Part shown: piece after piece, positions 1 to 7,789 of the stretch
Position numbering within the stretch: position 1 is the first letter of the stretch
Layout: every line of letters starts with the position of its first letter
DNA from: Desulfuromonadaceae bacterium
GTDB taxonomy: Bacteria; Desulfobacterota; Desulfuromonadia; Geobacterales; Pseudopelobacteraceae
Assembly (NCBI GenBank): GCA_028686055.1
Contig: JAQUCU010000005.1
Span: 1 to 38,309 of the forward strand
Direction: 5' to 3'
Length of the DNA stretch: 38,309 nt
Notes under the pieces: model-generated
What the model was told of the DNA's origin: nothing
Seen by the model: only the letters and a program-made list of their open reading frames with translations
Databases searched by the model: none
Translations under genes and position numbers: made by a program

Positions 1-3
1 ACG

Positions 4-52
4 CAAAAAAACCGGGAGCCTTATATCATTTAAAGATATTTCGGCAACCCGG
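4..52 (-). terminator. Riboswitch expression platform: intrinsic terminator mutually exclusive with aptamer P1/P3
   Basis: Minus RNA CCGGG-uu-GCC-gaa-AUAUC-uuuaaau-GAUAU-aa-GGC-u-CCCGG-UUUUUUU. AUAUC and CCGGG are also aptamer strands. Confidence 0.8.
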
Positions 53-119
53 CTGTCTCAGAGAGACCCTGTAGGCTTTCCGCCCCATTCTCGCGAATGG
101 TTGAGTATTATCGTATATC
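35..119 (-). ncRNA. GEMM-I type cyclic-dinucleotide riboswitch aptamer (c-di-GMP or cGAMP class)
   Basis: Minus-strand RNA GAUAU...CAACCAUUC-GCGA-GAAUGGGGCGGAAAGCCUACAGGGUCUCUCUGAGACAGCCGGGUUGCCGAAAUAUC. It has the GEMM hallmarks: P2 with GNRA loop, AAAGCC, P3 ending AGCCGGGUUGCCGA, and P1 pairing GAUAU/AUAUC. Confidence 0.9.
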
Positions 120-150
120 AGTGCATCACTATGTGTAGAGTTGGTGAAGT

Positions 151-179
151 TTTGTACGTTAAAGCATATACAAAGTCAA
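151..179 (-). promoter_or_regulatory. Candidate sigma-70 promoter for the riboswitch transcript (TTGACT-N17-TACAAA)
   Basis: Minus-strand TTGACT (179-174) and TACAAA (156-151) with 17-bp spacing, about 30 bp upstream of the aptamer. Confidence 0.45.
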
Positions 180-338
180 ATCTTATTCCTGTTTCTGCCC
201 ACCTCAACTTTCCTTTAATCACAGGAACCACGTTACATTTGGCAGCAGGAGTTCCGAGACGTCTTCCATATTGGGTTAAGGATAATCGTAACGTTGTGAT
301 GCGGGTTTATGTGCTAATAAATTCATTAAGCCAGTGCA

Positions 339-989
339 TTAATAAGCATACAGCACTGAAAGCCCTGCCTTTTCGACCGGATTAACAGCCGCCTCCCCCT
401 GGACTTCTATCGAATAGATATTAGGTGTCCTTGGTGTCTGGGTGCTGGAACTTGTACCGGCAACCCCCAGACCTCCATCCAGATAATCAATGCCGCTGGC
501 ATCAAGAAGCCCCACTCCCGCCACAGTATCAACGATCTTGGTGTAAACCTTGTACTTACTGCCGGCATTCTGCCCCTGAAGGGTAAAGGTAAGATCCGGC
601 ATATCTTTCGGGTTTACGGTTTTTGACAAGGCTGACGGCCATGCGGACGTTGAAGTGGTGAGTTTTGTATAGAACGCATTAGGGGTGAGCGCATCCGAGG
701 TGAACGCAAGGTTCAGGTTCGTGCCGAAATCGGTTATCAGCGATGCCCTCTTGTCCAAATAGTCAGTGAGAAGGGGGGAGGAGAAGAGCCTCGGTATGAT
801 GGTCTGGGTAATAAACTCGGTACCACCATACGAAGCTTCAAGAGCGCTTCTGTAACGTTTCTGGGCAGCTGACATTTTTGTCCCGGCAAGCACATAATAG
901 AGGAGTGTCATGATCATACCCAGACATATCAAGGTAAACATGAGCGCGGTTATCAGCGCTATGCCGTCCTGGTTTCGCAATACCTTCAT
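339..989 (-). CDS. PilX-like type IV pilus assembly minor pilin
   Basis: ORF 216 aa with N-terminal GIALITALMFTLICLGMIMTLLYYVLAGTK prepilin-like helix; follows pilW/pilV/fimT-like genes. Confidence 0.7.
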   Translation of the reverse strand: MKVLRNQDGIALITALMFTLICLGMIMTLLYYVLAGTKMSAAQKRYRSALEASYGGTEFITQTIIPRLFSSPLLTDYLDKRASLITDFGTNLNLAFTSDALTPNAFYTKLTTSTSAWPSALSKTVNPKDMPDLTFTLQGQNAGSKYKVYTKIVDTVAGVGLLDASGIDYLDGGLGVAGTSSSTQTPRTPNIYSIEVQGEAAVNPVEKAGLSVLYAY

Positions 990-1005
990 AAAATCACCGC
1001 CGTCA

Positions 1006-2154
1006 TTATTGAATCAGATTTTTCGGCCGTATCACGATTGTGTAGACCTTCCATCGGTATTGTTTGTAATCAGCGCCAATATGTGCCAACAGGTCGAAAT
1101 TTCTCCCCTTCAATACGCCGCCAAACCGTTCACCAACTTCGACCGTTTGCGAAGGATAGCTGTAGAATCTATCTTTTTTCCCCTCCTGGGCAAGTATATA
1201 AACTCTAATCTCTTTCAGTTCATCTCTGATTTTAGCTGCATCATAGCCGCTAATGTCAGACGTGTGATAATTGGGATCACTGTAGCTCATGCCGTTGCCC
1301 GACGCATCCAAACCATACACCACCTGCATGTCGGCAACACAGTCAAGTAGAGGCATCTTAGAAAAGTTCCCATCGCCCTGATTGACAATCGCTTTGTAAA
1401 GTATGCCAACCCCTTGGGAGGCACACGTTGCAGGCATCTTGGGCGGCGTTGAGATATAATAGTCGGCCCGGTTGAAGGGCATCCTCAGATCAGTACTGCT
1501 AACGCCGTAAATTTCGAAGGTGTCTCCGCTGTGGTGAGTAGCGGGAGATGAATAGTGAGCAAAGGTACCGGAAAAAACTCCCGCCGAAGAAACAGCCAGT
1601 TCCCGTGTAACGGGAGTGGAAGTCAGAGAATTCTTCACGATGATGACGTGATCATCAGAGGTAAAATCGCGATCAGCAGCGCCCCACTGCTTTCTCGTCC
1701 TCACATCGTCCTTGTCAAACGATACGGTAGTCCATTTTTTGCTGGTGCCGTTGGCAGCAGCCAGGATTGATTTGATAACAAGATAATTTGAAGCACCATC
1801 AGCGCCACTGTTGAATGTGCTGTTTCCACTCACAAAGGCGCGGGGAGGATTACCAGGCCCATCGTTAAAAGTTGAAGGATCAACGCCCGCAACTGTCGAA
1901 GCACTTGCCTCCTGATAGGCAACTCCACTGGAAAAGCTCCACGGCAGCCCAAACCCGGCCTGCTGCAGGTCAGCCCGCATAATTTCCAGGCCGACAATTC
2001 CCTCTATCTGAGTTTCAACTGACTTTGATTGCTGAGAGGATTGATAGACTATCCTTTCAAAGGCTGCTGACGAAATCATGATAACCGTCATGAAAATAGC
2101 CATGACAATGATCAGCTCTATGAGTGTATAGCCTTGTTTATTTTCACAAATCAC
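1006..2154 (-). CDS. PilW-like type IV pilus minor pilin (prepilin N-methylation motif)
   Basis: ORF 382 aa, GYTLIELIIVMAIFMTVIMISS class III signal; PilW-type length and context. Confidence 0.8.
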   Translation of the reverse strand: MICENKQGYTLIELIIVMAIFMTVIMISSAAFERIVYQSSQQSKSVETQIEGIVGLEIMRADLQQAGFGLPWSFSSGVAYQEASASTVAGVDPSTFNDGPGNPPRAFVSGNSTFNSGADGASNYLVIKSILAAANGTSKKWTTVSFDKDDVRTRKQWGAADRDFTSDDHVIIVKNSLTSTPVTRELAVSSAGVFSGTFAHYSSPATHHSGDTFEIYGVSSTDLRMPFNRADYYISTPPKMPATCASQGVGILYKAIVNQGDGNFSKMPLLDCVADMQVVYGLDASGNGMSYSDPNYHTSDISGYDAAKIRDELKEIRVYILAQEGKKDRFYSYPSQTVEVGERFGGVLKGRNFDLLAHIGADYKQYRWKVYTIVIRPKNLIQ

Positions 2155-2198
2155 TTTTCTGTACCTCGAAATACATCCACTCCGGGTTTGTTGTTAAA

Positions 2199-2585
2199 CT
2201 ACTTCTGAGAGATTGGCGCCGACACCCTGTTCTCATAGGTAACGCCTTTGTACGTCCACTTGACCACTATATTAAGCAGTTTGGTATCACTGGCAAGCGA
2301 GGTGGAACTTCTTTCAACGTAGATTTTTTTGCCCGTGCCGCGAATTTTACTGGCAGTCGATAACAATGGATACGTCGGGAGAATATTGTCATAACCACTC
2401 CCTTTCAATTCATTGAGATATTTTTCACCAACAAAGACACCCTCATCGCGAAGATGGTTCTTCAGGTTGTATTCAGTCGCAATGTTTATAGACTGCAGAA
2501 GCCCGAGAAGGCCTACCATCATTATGACAATGGCGACCATCACTTCTATGAGTGTGAAACCTCTATTTTTGATCAATATGGTCAC
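2199..2585 (-). CDS. PilV-like type IV pilus modification protein / minor pilin
   Basis: ORF 128 aa, GFTLIEVMVAIVIMMVGLLGLLQ typical of PilV. Confidence 0.8.
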   Translation of the reverse strand: MTILIKNRGFTLIEVMVAIVIMMVGLLGLLQSINIATEYNLKNHLRDEGVFVGEKYLNELKGSGYDNILPTYPLLSTASKIRGTGKKIYVERSSTSLASDTKLLNIVVKWTYKGVTYENRVSAPISQK

Positions 2586-3051
2586 TATCGCAAACTCCTC
2601 CGGTTCGTTTTCCGAGATTCAGCCTCGTCTGTGAAACAATAATGCTATCTTCAGCCGCCGAATTCAGGACGGCAAGGTCGTTTGTAGGCAGTACGCATAT
2701 GGAGCATATATCACTGGTCACCCCCTGCGAGTTAAAGGTCAGGATCAGGGGATCGCCTCCGTTCGATACAATTGGATACCGAAGCTGTTTGGTTACAATA
2801 GGATCGACAGACGTTTCTGCCGATGAATAGATCTTGAACTGTTGTCCGCTCAGTATCACCCTGCGCGCAGTTTTACTGTACAACGCCTGCAGCCTTATCT
2901 CCGTCAAATCAGCATGAATTTTCTTGATTTCGCTTTCCACGGCAGATTTGAGCTGCATCTCATGCCAGTTGAGTGTTGCAATAGCCATAAGGATCCCCAT
3001 TATTGCGATGGCGATGAGCAGCTCTATCAGTGTAAAACCGTGGTCTCTCAT
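2563..3051 (-). CDS. GspH/FimT family pseudopilin
   Basis: ORF 162 aa, GFTLIELLIAIAIMGILMAIA prepilin motif; GspH/FimT-like body. Confidence 0.8.
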   Translation of the reverse strand: MRDHGFTLIELLIAIAIMGILMAIATLNWHEMQLKSAVESEIKKIHADLTEIRLQALYSKTARRVILSGQQFKIYSSAETSVDPIVTKQLRYPIVSNGGDPLILTFNSQGVTSDICSICVLPTNDLAVLNSAAEDSIIVSQTRLNLGKRTGGVCDSDHIDQK

Positions 3052-3052
3052 A

Positions 3053-6000
3053 TCAATGTTCCTGGATATGCAGAATCTTCTTCAGCGGTTTATTCTGGCT
3101 GCTGCTGACTATTGGCGGTGCATCTGATGGCGGCTTTCCGGTCATCGGCGTCACCATGCGACGGTTCCCCCTGTCAGTGAAAGCTGTGGACAGATCGATT
3201 TCCGCAAACTGACCAGTGGAGAGCTGGACCAGCGCTTTGCCATGCATTACATTGGACGCTGCCTGACCGCCGGTATCATATTTCATCCCCCATAAATATG
3301 AGTTACCTCCGTAGCCACAGAAATCAGCGGTCGGTTTGAACGAGGTGAAAAATACCGTGCCATTTGTCAGTGCTACCGTATCGGTCACCACCCTTTCTGC
3401 TCCTTCAGAGGTTGTCGCACCATCGACTCCGGCGGTCGACGAATTATCAAGGTCAATCTGCCAGCCACCGTCTGTGCTTGCAACGGCTGAAACAGAGCTG
3501 GTCTGATTAACTATAGTTCCGCTCTGCGCCAAAGCACAGTTTCCATCCAGATAGTTTCCTGGTTTTGCATTCGTGTTGTAGCATGGCTCCTTTATGCCGT
3601 ATAATGATCTTCTATTTGAGGGGTCATCCAGAGAGCTAACGTTACGATAATAAAATCGACCAGTGCCAAAGTAAAGCCAGAGGTTTTTATTCTTCCTATC
3701 CTGAAGACGAGCAATGGAAGTTGTCACCGGTCCAATACCATCAATCACCGGACTCCAGGACCAGTTACTGGAACTGGGGCTCTCAGTAATTTGGGTCTCC
3801 TTGGTCATGATCCGACCGACTCCTCCGTCAGTCCAAGTGCCGTCCGTCGCTTTTTTCACATACCCAACATAGATTGCATCATCCTGGTAGTTGCCGGAAG
3901 TAGTCGAATTGTACCGATCAATGTCGATTGAACCGCCAATCATGGTTCCAACAAATGCATTGCTGATCCCTGTATCGATGGTATTGACCAGAGTGCCGGT
4001 ACTAAGATCGACAATAAAAAATTTCAGGTTCTGATCGGATTTACCGAGAAATTGGTGGGAAACAGTATCGACGGGCCCTGTGGGTCCTGAACCGAAGACA
4101 GCATACCAATGACCGTTTTTGGATTTATCCCCGATGCGGACGATAGCTGGCCCGCCAGTAGCATAGCCAAGTGCCGGATCGCTGAACTCCCACAGAAGAT
4201 TAGGATTGCCTGGATCAGTGACGTCGAGAGCAAAATAGGAGGAATATCCTACACCATCTATCGGCGTTTTGACACAGGTGCCGGCAGCAGTATTATCACA
4301 GCTAAAGTCTGTGTTGCGCGAAGCCCCACCAAGACCCATGCCGCCGAGAACAATTGTTCGCCAGGTACTATTGGTCTTCACCTGGTCCCAGTAGTTCCCC
4401 CCGCTTCCGTCATTTCCTATACTGGCATCCATTATGGTCGTCCGCCCGTCAACTGAATAGAGGTGATTGTATAGAGGATCAGCCATGTACTTAAGATAGG
4501 GGAGTGCATTTTTCGGGATGAAGGCCCATTGTTCCTTGCCCAAATCTGTGCCTGAAAGAGTAGCCTTGTTATTGCCCGAAGCCAGCACAGACAGAGAACC
4601 AAAATTGAAAGCATGGAACAAGCCATCGTTCCCCCCCACATAAACCATGCCTCGGCTTTGGTAAGCAGTGGATCTTGTATAGTCTTGGTACGTAGTATCA
4701 TTGTATCCGCCTGGAGGGACAAGATTGTAAGTATTCAGCCGCGCGGAAGATTGTATCCGCGGTGTTGACGAAATAATGTCGCCCAATCTCCAAACCCCGA
4801 TGCTGACAACATTAGTTACAGGATCTTTGATGGCCACTGTCCGGTTCCGGTAGCCGGTCTGATCTGTACCATTGACCCAGTTGATCAAACTCGGCGCGAC
4901 AGTAGCGGTAGTGTTGAGGTAAGAAGCCAGAGTAGCAGCATTGTCGGTGGAAAAATTAATCAATGAAGTGCCGTCAGTGGTAGTCATGATGCTTCGTGGT
5001 GAGGTTGTTAAATTTCTCTGCCAGAGACCCTTTCCAGCCCGCCAGAGACTCTTAACGTAGTCAGGATCAATCGGGCCGCCTACTGCCGTGTCAGGGACAC
5101 CGTCTCCGTTGGTATCCTGGTAAAGCTGGACCATGGTCTTATCTGAATTGGTGTCAAAGAAAAAATTGGCAATGTAGTCATTGATCAGGTTCAGATTAAA
5201 TTTCCCGGCAGTGTCTATCCCGTCAGTTTCTTCCCTGATGGTACTGTTGTTTATGTATGGGTCCACATAGTACCAGAGGTTTTGCATCTCGCCGATCCAG
5301 TTTGCTTGGGTAACCTTACCTGTATTTGGATCGTTGGCAAAGAGTTTTGTAGGATAGAAAACCGCCTGCAAAATGTTCGCCCCGCTCCCCTCGCTATTGC
5401 TGAGAATCGAGGCCGCGGTACCGGATGCAGCGCCGGCGGCTATCTGCTGCAAGGCGGTTTGCAGGGAAGTCCTGAAAGCAATGGGGTCCGCCGGGGTCTG
5501 CAGTGTTGTACCGCCGTTAGCGGCGGTTTTGCTCAACTGGGCATTGGCATCGCACATGTCGGTGGTGGTCGTAGATACAGGTCCGGTATAAACCGCGTAG
5601 GTCTTTATCGTCTGGGCAGTATCGCAGCTGTAGGTGCTGCCGGAGGGAGGGGGGCAAACCTTGCTCGGATCGAAGATGTTCCGGTGCTGGGCAAAGTAGC
5701 TCAGGTCATGGAGATAGGGGGTGCCCGCATAACTGCCACAGGTAGTCGACTCCGTAGTAGTGGTCGGGTCACGGAATGCGCCGGAGGAATCGGTTACCTT
5801 GCCGGTCATGGTGTTGTTCTGATCGGCAGTGGACGCACCGTCCGTAATAAAGAGGATGTTGTTCAACTGGCAGCGGTACTGTATAGGATTCTTGCCTCCA
5901 GCGAAATCTGCGCTATTCAAGGGTGATTTAATCGATGTGGCGGCAGGGGCGAAAGCGGTTGTGTCGAGGTTTGGATTGGTGGCAACGGCATCCTTTGTGA

Positions 6001-7789
6001 AATAGGCTATTGCGTTATAAAAGGCCTCGGCAAAGGGGGTCCAACTACTCGCCGGGACACCATCGATGCTGTTGATAAGCCCGGATGCATGGTTCCCCAC
6101 CGATGGTTTGCAATACTCACCAGCAGGGCACTCTTTATCAACATCGCACGCAGTGGTAGTCGTGGCTGAACATTGGCCCGCTCCGACATAGGATAGCATT
6201 GTACTGCCGTCCTTGTTGGTGACGGCCAAGCACGACACTCCCGAAGAGCAGTCGCTATCGTTCGTACACATCATGCCGTTTATATTTCCGCCACAGAACT
6301 GTGGACAGGGTATCTTCGAGGTTCCGCCGCACTCGGAAGATGAACCGGCATAGTTGAAGGTCATGGCGCCGAAGCGGATCGAGCCGGCGAAATCATTAAT
6401 GATCCCGGTCGGAGGAGCTGAAATGCCTGCCTTGGCATAAAAGAATGTGTCCATGCTTCCAGACGGCCCAACTGGGGTGCCGATGGCCCGGACCCCCGCA
6501 TCCGTCAGGACCGCGGGGATGTTGCCGGTCCCGGCGGAAGAGCCCGATGAGGGGTCGGTCACCTCGGTAAAGTTGACCCCGTAGCAGTAGTGAAGGATCT
6601 CCTGCTTGACGCAAGCGTCATTGCCAGTGAATTTGTCACTAGCGCCTTTCCAACACTGACCGACAAAACCGGTTGTGTCCGTGCCATCCACGTTATAGGG
6701 AGAAGGAGGTGCCACGTGGGTCGCGACACTGGTACATAAATAATTGCCCAGCGTCTTGTCGGTAAGCGCCGACGGAAGAATCGGGTTTTTATTGTCGTTA
6801 TAGATGTTGGTGCAGCCGGTCTCTATATCCTGAACATTGAGCCCATGCCAGATGGCGGCATCGGTCGTCGCCCCTTTGGCTATATTATCCTTTATCACCC
6901 AGCAGGTCTGCTGGGCGTGGTTCAGGGTGGCCAGGGAAGAGTCGGCATTGGTCGTGTCGAGGCAGGACTTGGTGTCGGTGCTCGCCTGGCCGTAATTACC
7001 GCTCGTCCAGTTATAGACCGCGCACTGGCAGGCATCCTGGTTGTACGTTCCCTCAAAGATTTCGATCCTGCTCTCCCCCCCCTGGGTACTCGGGTTATAA
7101 TTCGGTTCCACACTGTTGGGCCCCCGGACCGCAAAGGTAATGCCGGGCAGTACAGGTAGCGCCTTGACGAACCTCCTGCCGTTGCAACCCCTCGATTCTC
7201 CGATCAGCGCCTGTTGTGTCGAGTTGTACTTGCCGCCGGTCAGTATCTTCTTTTCAATATCGAACTTGGAGGAGGCGAGCCAGTTCAGAAACCTGCCGCT
7301 GGCAGCGAATGATGTGACAGTCCTGGTGCTCGGCGTCAAACTGCTGTTGCCGGTCATCGCCACATCCAGATAACTGGTGTGATACGTGCCGCCGGTAGGC
7401 AAAGCAGTGATCTCAACGAATTTCCCCCCCGAATACTGGTATATGGGATAACTAATCGAGATCGGGGTGGTCGTCGTGTTGAGCTTGCTGAAATACCCGT
7501 CATAATCCTTGGTATTATCATAGCTATTGTCATAGCAGGAGGCTCCGACTGGTAGCGTGCACGTGCCGCTCGAAGTGGATGTTGCCCCCGACATGTACCC
7601 CATGTCGAACATACTGGCGGAGTTGTCAATGATCATAAGCAGGTTGGGTGTTCTGTTTGCAGTAGTAAATGCCGGCTGGACACAATAGGAGTTCCCCGAA
7701 TCAGCATGTGCCTGTTGGGAAAAGGATGAAACAAGCAGGGCAACAAGGAAAACCAAAAAGAGTTTTGTGAGAGCAGCTGTATCCTTCAT
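3053..7789 (-). CDS. pilY1: PilY1-like type IV pilus tip/biogenesis protein with N-terminal VWA-like domain
   Basis: ORF 1578 aa with signal peptide, NLLMIIDNSASMFD (DxSxS MIDAS-like), C-terminal propeller region (GMVYVGGNDGLFHAFN, KEQWAFIPKNALPYLKYM) typical of PilY1; about 33 Cys. Confidence 0.9.
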   Translation of the reverse strand: MKDTAALTKLFLVFLVALLVSSFSQQAHADSGNSYCVQPAFTTANRTPNLLMIIDNSASMFDMGYMSGATSTSSGTCTLPVGASCYDNSYDNTKDYDGYFSKLNTTTTPISISYPIYQYSGGKFVEITALPTGGTYHTSYLDVAMTGNSSLTPSTRTVTSFAASGRFLNWLASSKFDIEKKILTGGKYNSTQQALIGESRGCNGRRFVKALPVLPGITFAVRGPNSVEPNYNPSTQGGESRIEIFEGTYNQDACQCAVYNWTSGNYGQASTDTKSCLDTTNADSSLATLNHAQQTCWVIKDNIAKGATTDAAIWHGLNVQDIETGCTNIYNDNKNPILPSALTDKTLGNYLCTSVATHVAPPSPYNVDGTDTTGFVGQCWKGASDKFTGNDACVKQEILHYCYGVNFTEVTDPSSGSSAGTGNIPAVLTDAGVRAIGTPVGPSGSMDTFFYAKAGISAPPTGIINDFAGSIRFGAMTFNYAGSSSECGGTSKIPCPQFCGGNINGMMCTNDSDCSSGVSCLAVTNKDGSTMLSYVGAGQCSATTTTACDVDKECPAGEYCKPSVGNHASGLINSIDGVPASSWTPFAEAFYNAIAYFTKDAVATNPNLDTTAFAPAATSIKSPLNSADFAGGKNPIQYRCQLNNILFITDGASTADQNNTMTGKVTDSSGAFRDPTTTTESTTCGSYAGTPYLHDLSYFAQHRNIFDPSKVCPPPSGSTYSCDTAQTIKTYAVYTGPVSTTTTDMCDANAQLSKTAANGGTTLQTPADPIAFRTSLQTALQQIAAGAASGTAASILSNSEGSGANILQAVFYPTKLFANDPNTGKVTQANWIGEMQNLWYYVDPYINNSTIREETDGIDTAGKFNLNLINDYIANFFFDTNSDKTMVQLYQDTNGDGVPDTAVGGPIDPDYVKSLWRAGKGLWQRNLTTSPRSIMTTTDGTSLINFSTDNAATLASYLNTTATVAPSLINWVNGTDQTGYRNRTVAIKDPVTNVVSIGVWRLGDIISSTPRIQSSARLNTYNLVPPGGYNDTTYQDYTRSTAYQSRGMVYVGGNDGLFHAFNFGSLSVLASGNNKATLSGTDLGKEQWAFIPKNALPYLKYMADPLYNHLYSVDGRTTIMDASIGNDGSGGNYWDQVKTNSTWRTIVLGGMGLGGASRNTDFSCDNTAAGTCVKTPIDGVGYSSYFALDVTDPGNPNLLWEFSDPALGYATGGPAIVRIGDKSKNGHWYAVFGSGPTGPVDTVSHQFLGKSDQNLKFFIVDLSTGTLVNTIDTGISNAFVGTMIGGSIDIDRYNSTTSGNYQDDAIYVGYVKKATDGTWTDGGVGRIMTKETQITESPSSSNWSWSPVIDGIGPVTTSIARLQDRKNKNLWLYFGTGRFYYRNVSSLDDPSNRRSLYGIKEPCYNTNAKPGNYLDGNCALAQSGTIVNQTSSVSAVASTDGGWQIDLDNSSTAGVDGATTSEGAERVVTDTVALTNGTVFFTSFKPTADFCGYGGNSYLWGMKYDTGGQAASNVMHGKALVQLSTGQFAEIDLSTAFTDRGNRRMVTPMTGKPPSDAPPIVSSSQNKPLKKILHIQEH

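Follow-up and report, generated by a model that had tools for sequence, protein, structure and literature searches.

The pilM operon of Geobacter metallireducens is preceded by a riboswitch described as a cGAMP ON-switch, in which aptamer and terminator are mutually exclusive; cGAMP riboswitches can also bind c-di-GMP, and changes in the lower part of P2 shift their selectivity (PMC9262584). The subclass GEMM-Ib has been described together with its regulon in G. sulfurreducens, where expression is cGAMP-dependent, the Hypr GGDEF enzyme is GacA, and the targets include pgcA (GSU1761) and a regulator plus pilMNOP (PMC6456294). Deletion of gacA in that organism lowers "a transcriptional regulator" and the pilMNOP genes 2-3 fold, as against 10-16 fold for pgcA and omcAHG (PMC6456294). 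None of the papers searched mentions GSU2033.

The window – the whole stretch of 38,309 nucleotides analysed here – is one entire contig (C127) of a draft genome from the Geobacter order. On the minus strand of its left end lies a genuine ortholog of the pilM riboswitch previously studied in Geobacter: real, well formed and essentially known, in a new genome. In silico we found the aptamer, an A at position 20, overlap of the aptamer with a terminator, a pilM operon on an overlapping contig, and a GacA-like gene. Very probably the element belongs to GEMM-Ib (3',3'-cGAMP) and acts as an ON switch of transcription in the leader of an operon made up of an XRE regulator and pilMNOP, the ligand and the direction of the effect being predictions. 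With the G. metallireducens switch it shares, by published description, a GEMM-type aptamer before the pilM operon, a terminator that recruits the P1 3' strand and the C that pairs with the ligand, and (here as a prediction) cGAMP ON logic; the species and the sequence differ (PMC9262584). G. sulfurreducens has 17 GEMM-I copies (PMC6456294) and this genome 18 matches. The original prediction for this DNA mentioned neither the G. metallireducens study (PMC9262584) nor a promoter-like element downstream of the riboswitch, which is what is new here and which may let the operon bypass the switch. The locus links pilus assembly with cGAMP signalling in a further lineage of Geobacterales, and an annotation as a c-di-GMP riboswitch becomes a specific prediction of cGAMP as ligand, ON logic and a bypass promoter. 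The features of the locus are as follows.

339-7789, minus strand: upstream pilin-like gene cluster (N_methyl proteins, a PilW-like protein, a large ORF in the PilY1 position), from Pfam
151-179, minus strand: possible riboswitch promoter TTGACT-N17-TACAAA, proposed from 9/12 consensus matches
115-119, minus strand: P1 5' strand GAUAU, from the sequence
40-116, minus strand: GEMM-I aptamer, predicted GEMM-Ib (cGAMP) type, from RF01051 and our own model R1 (74.7 bits, the window being among the sequences used to build R1)
106, minus strand: specificity position (equivalent of Vc2 nucleotide 20), A, in model column 11 of the Rfam and our own alignments
85-100, minus strand: P2 hairpin CCAUUC-GCGA-GAAUGG
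46-77, minus strand: P3 hairpin (AGCC...GGUU, GUCUC/GAGAC)
35-39, minus strand: P1 3' strand AUAUC, common to P1 and terminator, from sequence and folds
12-52, minus strand: intrinsic terminator hairpin using the P3 3' CCGGG, the P1 3' strand, and the GCC that includes the ligand-pairing C, from folding
5-11, minus strand: U7 tract of the terminator, from the sequence
1-470, equal to 3301-3772 of contig C300: overlap of the two contigs at 98% identity

A GEMM core on the minus strand had been proposed from the letters alone, and the covariance model bears this out: RF01051 (c-di-GMP-I, GEMM-I), the sole Rfam family above threshold in the window, matches positions 116-40 (minus strand) over the full model (1-87) with 42.5 bits, the gathering cut-off being 35 bits. 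The P2 and P3 helices of a GEMM-I RNA are present with the conserved core. Among orthologs P2 is paired in 100% of cells, with two pairs showing changes on both sides, and P3 in 92-95%; the P1 helix is conserved only in part (70% of cells paired). Aptamer nucleotides for which a bare terminator has no need are conserved across three families of the order.

In overall fold and family model the RNA is like the GEMM-Ia (c-di-GMP) riboswitches of RF01051, but where these have G at position 20 the window has A. This base, A106, is unpaired, adjoins the pairs C105-G80 and U104-G81, and stands just before the two-base lower helix. The column was read in the Rfam alignment and in our own 30-sequence model; by the Vc2 structure, we take column 11 to be nucleotide 20 of Vc2. 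It is established for this family, reportedly by Kellenberger et al. and Nelson et al. in 2015, that an A in place of G at this nucleotide marks GEMM-Ib, the subclass that prefers cGAMP. The original prediction had called the specificity base ambiguous; the column aligns as A, of the cGAMP type. Nor are the sequence departures that it saw as peculiar in fact so: ACUCAACC and GCGGAAAGCC are the consensus for this subclass within the order, whose common A forms share CGAUAAUACUMAACC and GGRCGGAAAGCC. The unusual J1/2 together with GCGGAAAGCC was considered as a new aptamer variant and rejected, since both match the subclass consensus. An A occupies the specificity column in 14 of the 18 GEMM matches of this genome (G in the other four) and in 8/8 full-length GEMMs from loci other than the window's in the first pilM set. 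From A106 we infer that the window RNA is of the GEMM-Ib, cGAMP-sensing type, an A at position 20 being compatible with c-di-GMP binding.

The genome also encodes a candidate synthase (locus L161, 634-1998), a 454-aa protein with a response receiver and a GGDEF domain that carries a GHLVGS motif, YGGDEY where GGDEF is expected, and Ser at the selectivity position, a residue that marks Hypr enzymes. The best PDB match of its GGDEF domain is 6d9m (208 bits, against 99 bits for PleD), an entry for a lysozyme fusion of a response receiver sensor diguanylate cyclase and presumably a Geobacter Hypr domain. We take the protein as the GacA ortholog and, by its sequence, as a likely cGAMP synthase; such a gene is supporting context for a GEMM-Ib assignment and not a property of the RNA.

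All the pairing segments that had been proposed were confirmed by direct reading of the minus strand: GAUAU at 119-115, AUAUC at 39-35, GAUAU at 27-23, CCGGG at 52-48, CCCGG at 16-12 and U7 at 11-5. The terminator is built from the 3' strands of P3 and P1, and the mutually exclusive aptamer and terminator of the original prediction are supported by sequence and folds, the aptamer-consuming hairpin with its U run recurring in 19/19 pilM orthologs (equalled by at most 1.3% of shuffles) and in 11 further A20 GEMMs of this genome. Folding of the terminator hairpin (window 56-12) gives -17.6 kcal/mol compared to -8.4 +/- 2.7 in shuffles (z -3.4), and when the tail after the aptamer alone is shuffled none of 300 sequences is as stable as the native terminator. 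Shuffled-tail folding replaced pair counting for the terminator 3' arms because their alignment is too gappy. In model energies the cost of keeping the aptamer grows with the emerging terminator arm, from 4.8 to 18.8 kcal/mol: the aptamer would lose as the arm is transcribed, which supports the ligand-ON logic predicted earlier. A simple promoter and terminator scan of window 1-400 found nothing, since neither the bulged terminator nor the TACAAA hexamer of the possible riboswitch promoter satisfies its strict rules; promoter-like sites occur at a similar distance upstream of the aptamer in about half of the orthologs.

The controlled gene had been placed to the left of the window without a name. 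Contig C300 of the same genome overlaps the left 470 bases of the window (463/472 identical, with nine differences), and both contigs terminate at this shared 472-base stretch. Beyond the overlap C300 encodes a 68-aa XRE-type regulator and then pilM, pilN, pilO and pilP (Pfam matches HTH_3, PilM, PilN, PilO and PilP), so that the identity of the operon, absent from the earlier reading, is now supplied. The assembly has a single pilM and a single copy of the window's PilW-like gene, and the window and C300 would therefore most simply be opposite ends of a single locus that strain variation has split, joined through their 98%-identical overlap. An overlap of this identity between two contigs of one assembly itself points to a mixture of strains in the draft genome. 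On the other side, a position downstream of minor-pilin genes holds in part: three ORFs neighboring the riboswitch have the type IV pilin N_methyl motif (Pfam) and one a sub-threshold match to PilW, whereas the ORF nearest the riboswitch (989-339, minus strand) has no match in family searches and the 1578-aa ORF at 3053-7789 (minus strand, PilY1 position) none in Pfam or NCBIfam.

The relatives used for comparison are mostly metagenome assemblies named Geobacteraceae and Desulfuromonadaceae. A riboswitch is present at 19 of the 66 pilM loci with enough upstream sequence – loci that are not a random sample, and at which absence was judged under default search filters – and the order riboswitch-regulator-pilM occurs at 19 loci, the window's own included. 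On a quick tree of PilM the riboswitch is scattered (11 changes, at least four of them forced by well-supported branches). One locus (L077, near 5500-5552) holds a decayed GEMM remnant of 23.6 bits that has lost the P2 region, upstream of an intact regulator-pilM pair; it is a riboswitch loss in progress.

Downstream of the riboswitch site and ahead of the XRE gene, an invariant TTGAC(A/T) is found at 58/58 loci with a readable regulator, riboswitch or none, 59-74 bases before the regulator's start codon. A -10 region resembling GTAAAT comes after it, and most loci also have ATAATTA about 12 bases upstream of it. The -10 matches TATAAT at only 2-4 of six positions, so the label of sigma-70 promoter is a tentative one. 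Searched across the genome, ATAATTA-N11/12-TTGAC occurs at three sites compared to one for the reversed pattern, with only one at pilM, and no wider regulon is therefore claimed. If the element is a promoter, then pilMNOP has a basal supply to which cGAMP adds, and the weak dependence of pilMNOP on GacA – the modest effect reported for the gacA deletion – would be explained. The riboswitch at pilM may thus be an optional cGAMP booster and not the sole gate. Whether Geobacterales pilM operons have a conserved riboswitch-independent promoter, with the riboswitch a booster gained or lost several times and the basal promoter perhaps XRE-autoregulated, we judge to be evenly balanced. On C300 (minus strand, before the XRE start at 3170) a perfect 9-bp inverted repeat, CTATGAAAT-TAAT-ATTTCATAG, lies after the promoter-like element and ahead of the start codon and is a possible operator of the XRE regulator; similar repeats occur at L074, L080 and L113 and are absent from most other loci.

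In the mechanism we propose, RNA polymerase would transcribe the aptamer first. If cGAMP binds, then P1, P2 and P3 would hold, A106 and the CC at 44-43 lining the pocket, and the bound aptamer would keep CCGGG, GCC and AUAUC from the downstream CCCGG, GGC and GAUAU; no terminator would form, and transcription would continue into the XRE-regulator-pilMNOP operon. If no ligand binds, CCGGG, GCC and AUAUC would refold into the terminator and transcription would stop at U7. The cGAMP would probably come from the GacA-like Hypr cyclase of the same genome. The conserved promoter-like element after the terminator would allow riboswitch-independent transcription, the switch presumably boosting rather than gating the operon.

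This element also gives weight to a different reading, in which the structure serves chiefly to end transcription of the upstream pilin cluster, the operon has its own promoter and ligand control matters little. The constancy of TTGAC(A/T) with its GTAAAT at 58/58 loci, the lack of a riboswitch at most pilM loci, and the 2-3 fold effect of gacA on pilMNOP against 10-16 fold on pgcA and omcAHG (PMC6456294) speak for it, and the switch could be minor in practice. However, aptamer nucleotides that a bare terminator could do without are conserved over three families, about half of the orthologs have a promoter-like site just upstream of the aptamer, and the G. metallireducens counterpart is described as a cGAMP ON-switch (PMC9262584); we regard this reading as unlikely. 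Slightly less likely again is an aptamer of the c-di-GMP (GEMM-Ia) type, or a promiscuous one, with an operon that answers to c-di-GMP or to both messengers. The matching family model is that of c-di-GMP-I, and since the genome encodes numerous canonical GGDEF domains and has four GEMMs with G20, both messengers are probably present in the organism; the c-di-GMP binding of cGAMP riboswitches, and the lower-P2 mutations that shift their selectivity, point the same way (PMC9262584). Against this stand the A rather than G at the specificity position, in a subclass consensus context, the Hypr-type cyclase gene, and the description of the G. metallireducens pilM riboswitch as cGAMP-sensing (PMC9262584).

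The remaining alternative concerns the join. If the window and C300 were two paralogous copies – and the nine differences within the shared stretch, at which both contigs end, might be read in this manner – then the window riboswitch would control some other gene. Yet pilM and the PilW-like gene each occur just once in the assembly, the stretches at the ends of the overlap are identical, as a strain bubble would give, and the riboswitch-regulator-pilM order recurs in relatives; we consider paralogy highly improbable. A single locus, with a cGAMP-type ON riboswitch before the XRE regulator and pilMNOP, is thus the reading we prefer.

Other GEMMs show some variety. The one at L069 (contig C23, 1522-1663) has G20 and a long insert in P3; its ON-type terminator is very strong (-28.3 kcal/mol), and it is perhaps a c-di-GMP ON switch. 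That at L061 (contig C118, 424-498) has A at position 20, yet its lower pair is GC/GC as in the c-di-GMP type, and fold analysis gave no clear aptamer-consuming terminator. At L062 (contig C185, 850-926 and 1052-1127) two A-type GEMMs stand in tandem, each with its own terminator, ahead of a 445-aa ORF with a lipoprotein-like start.
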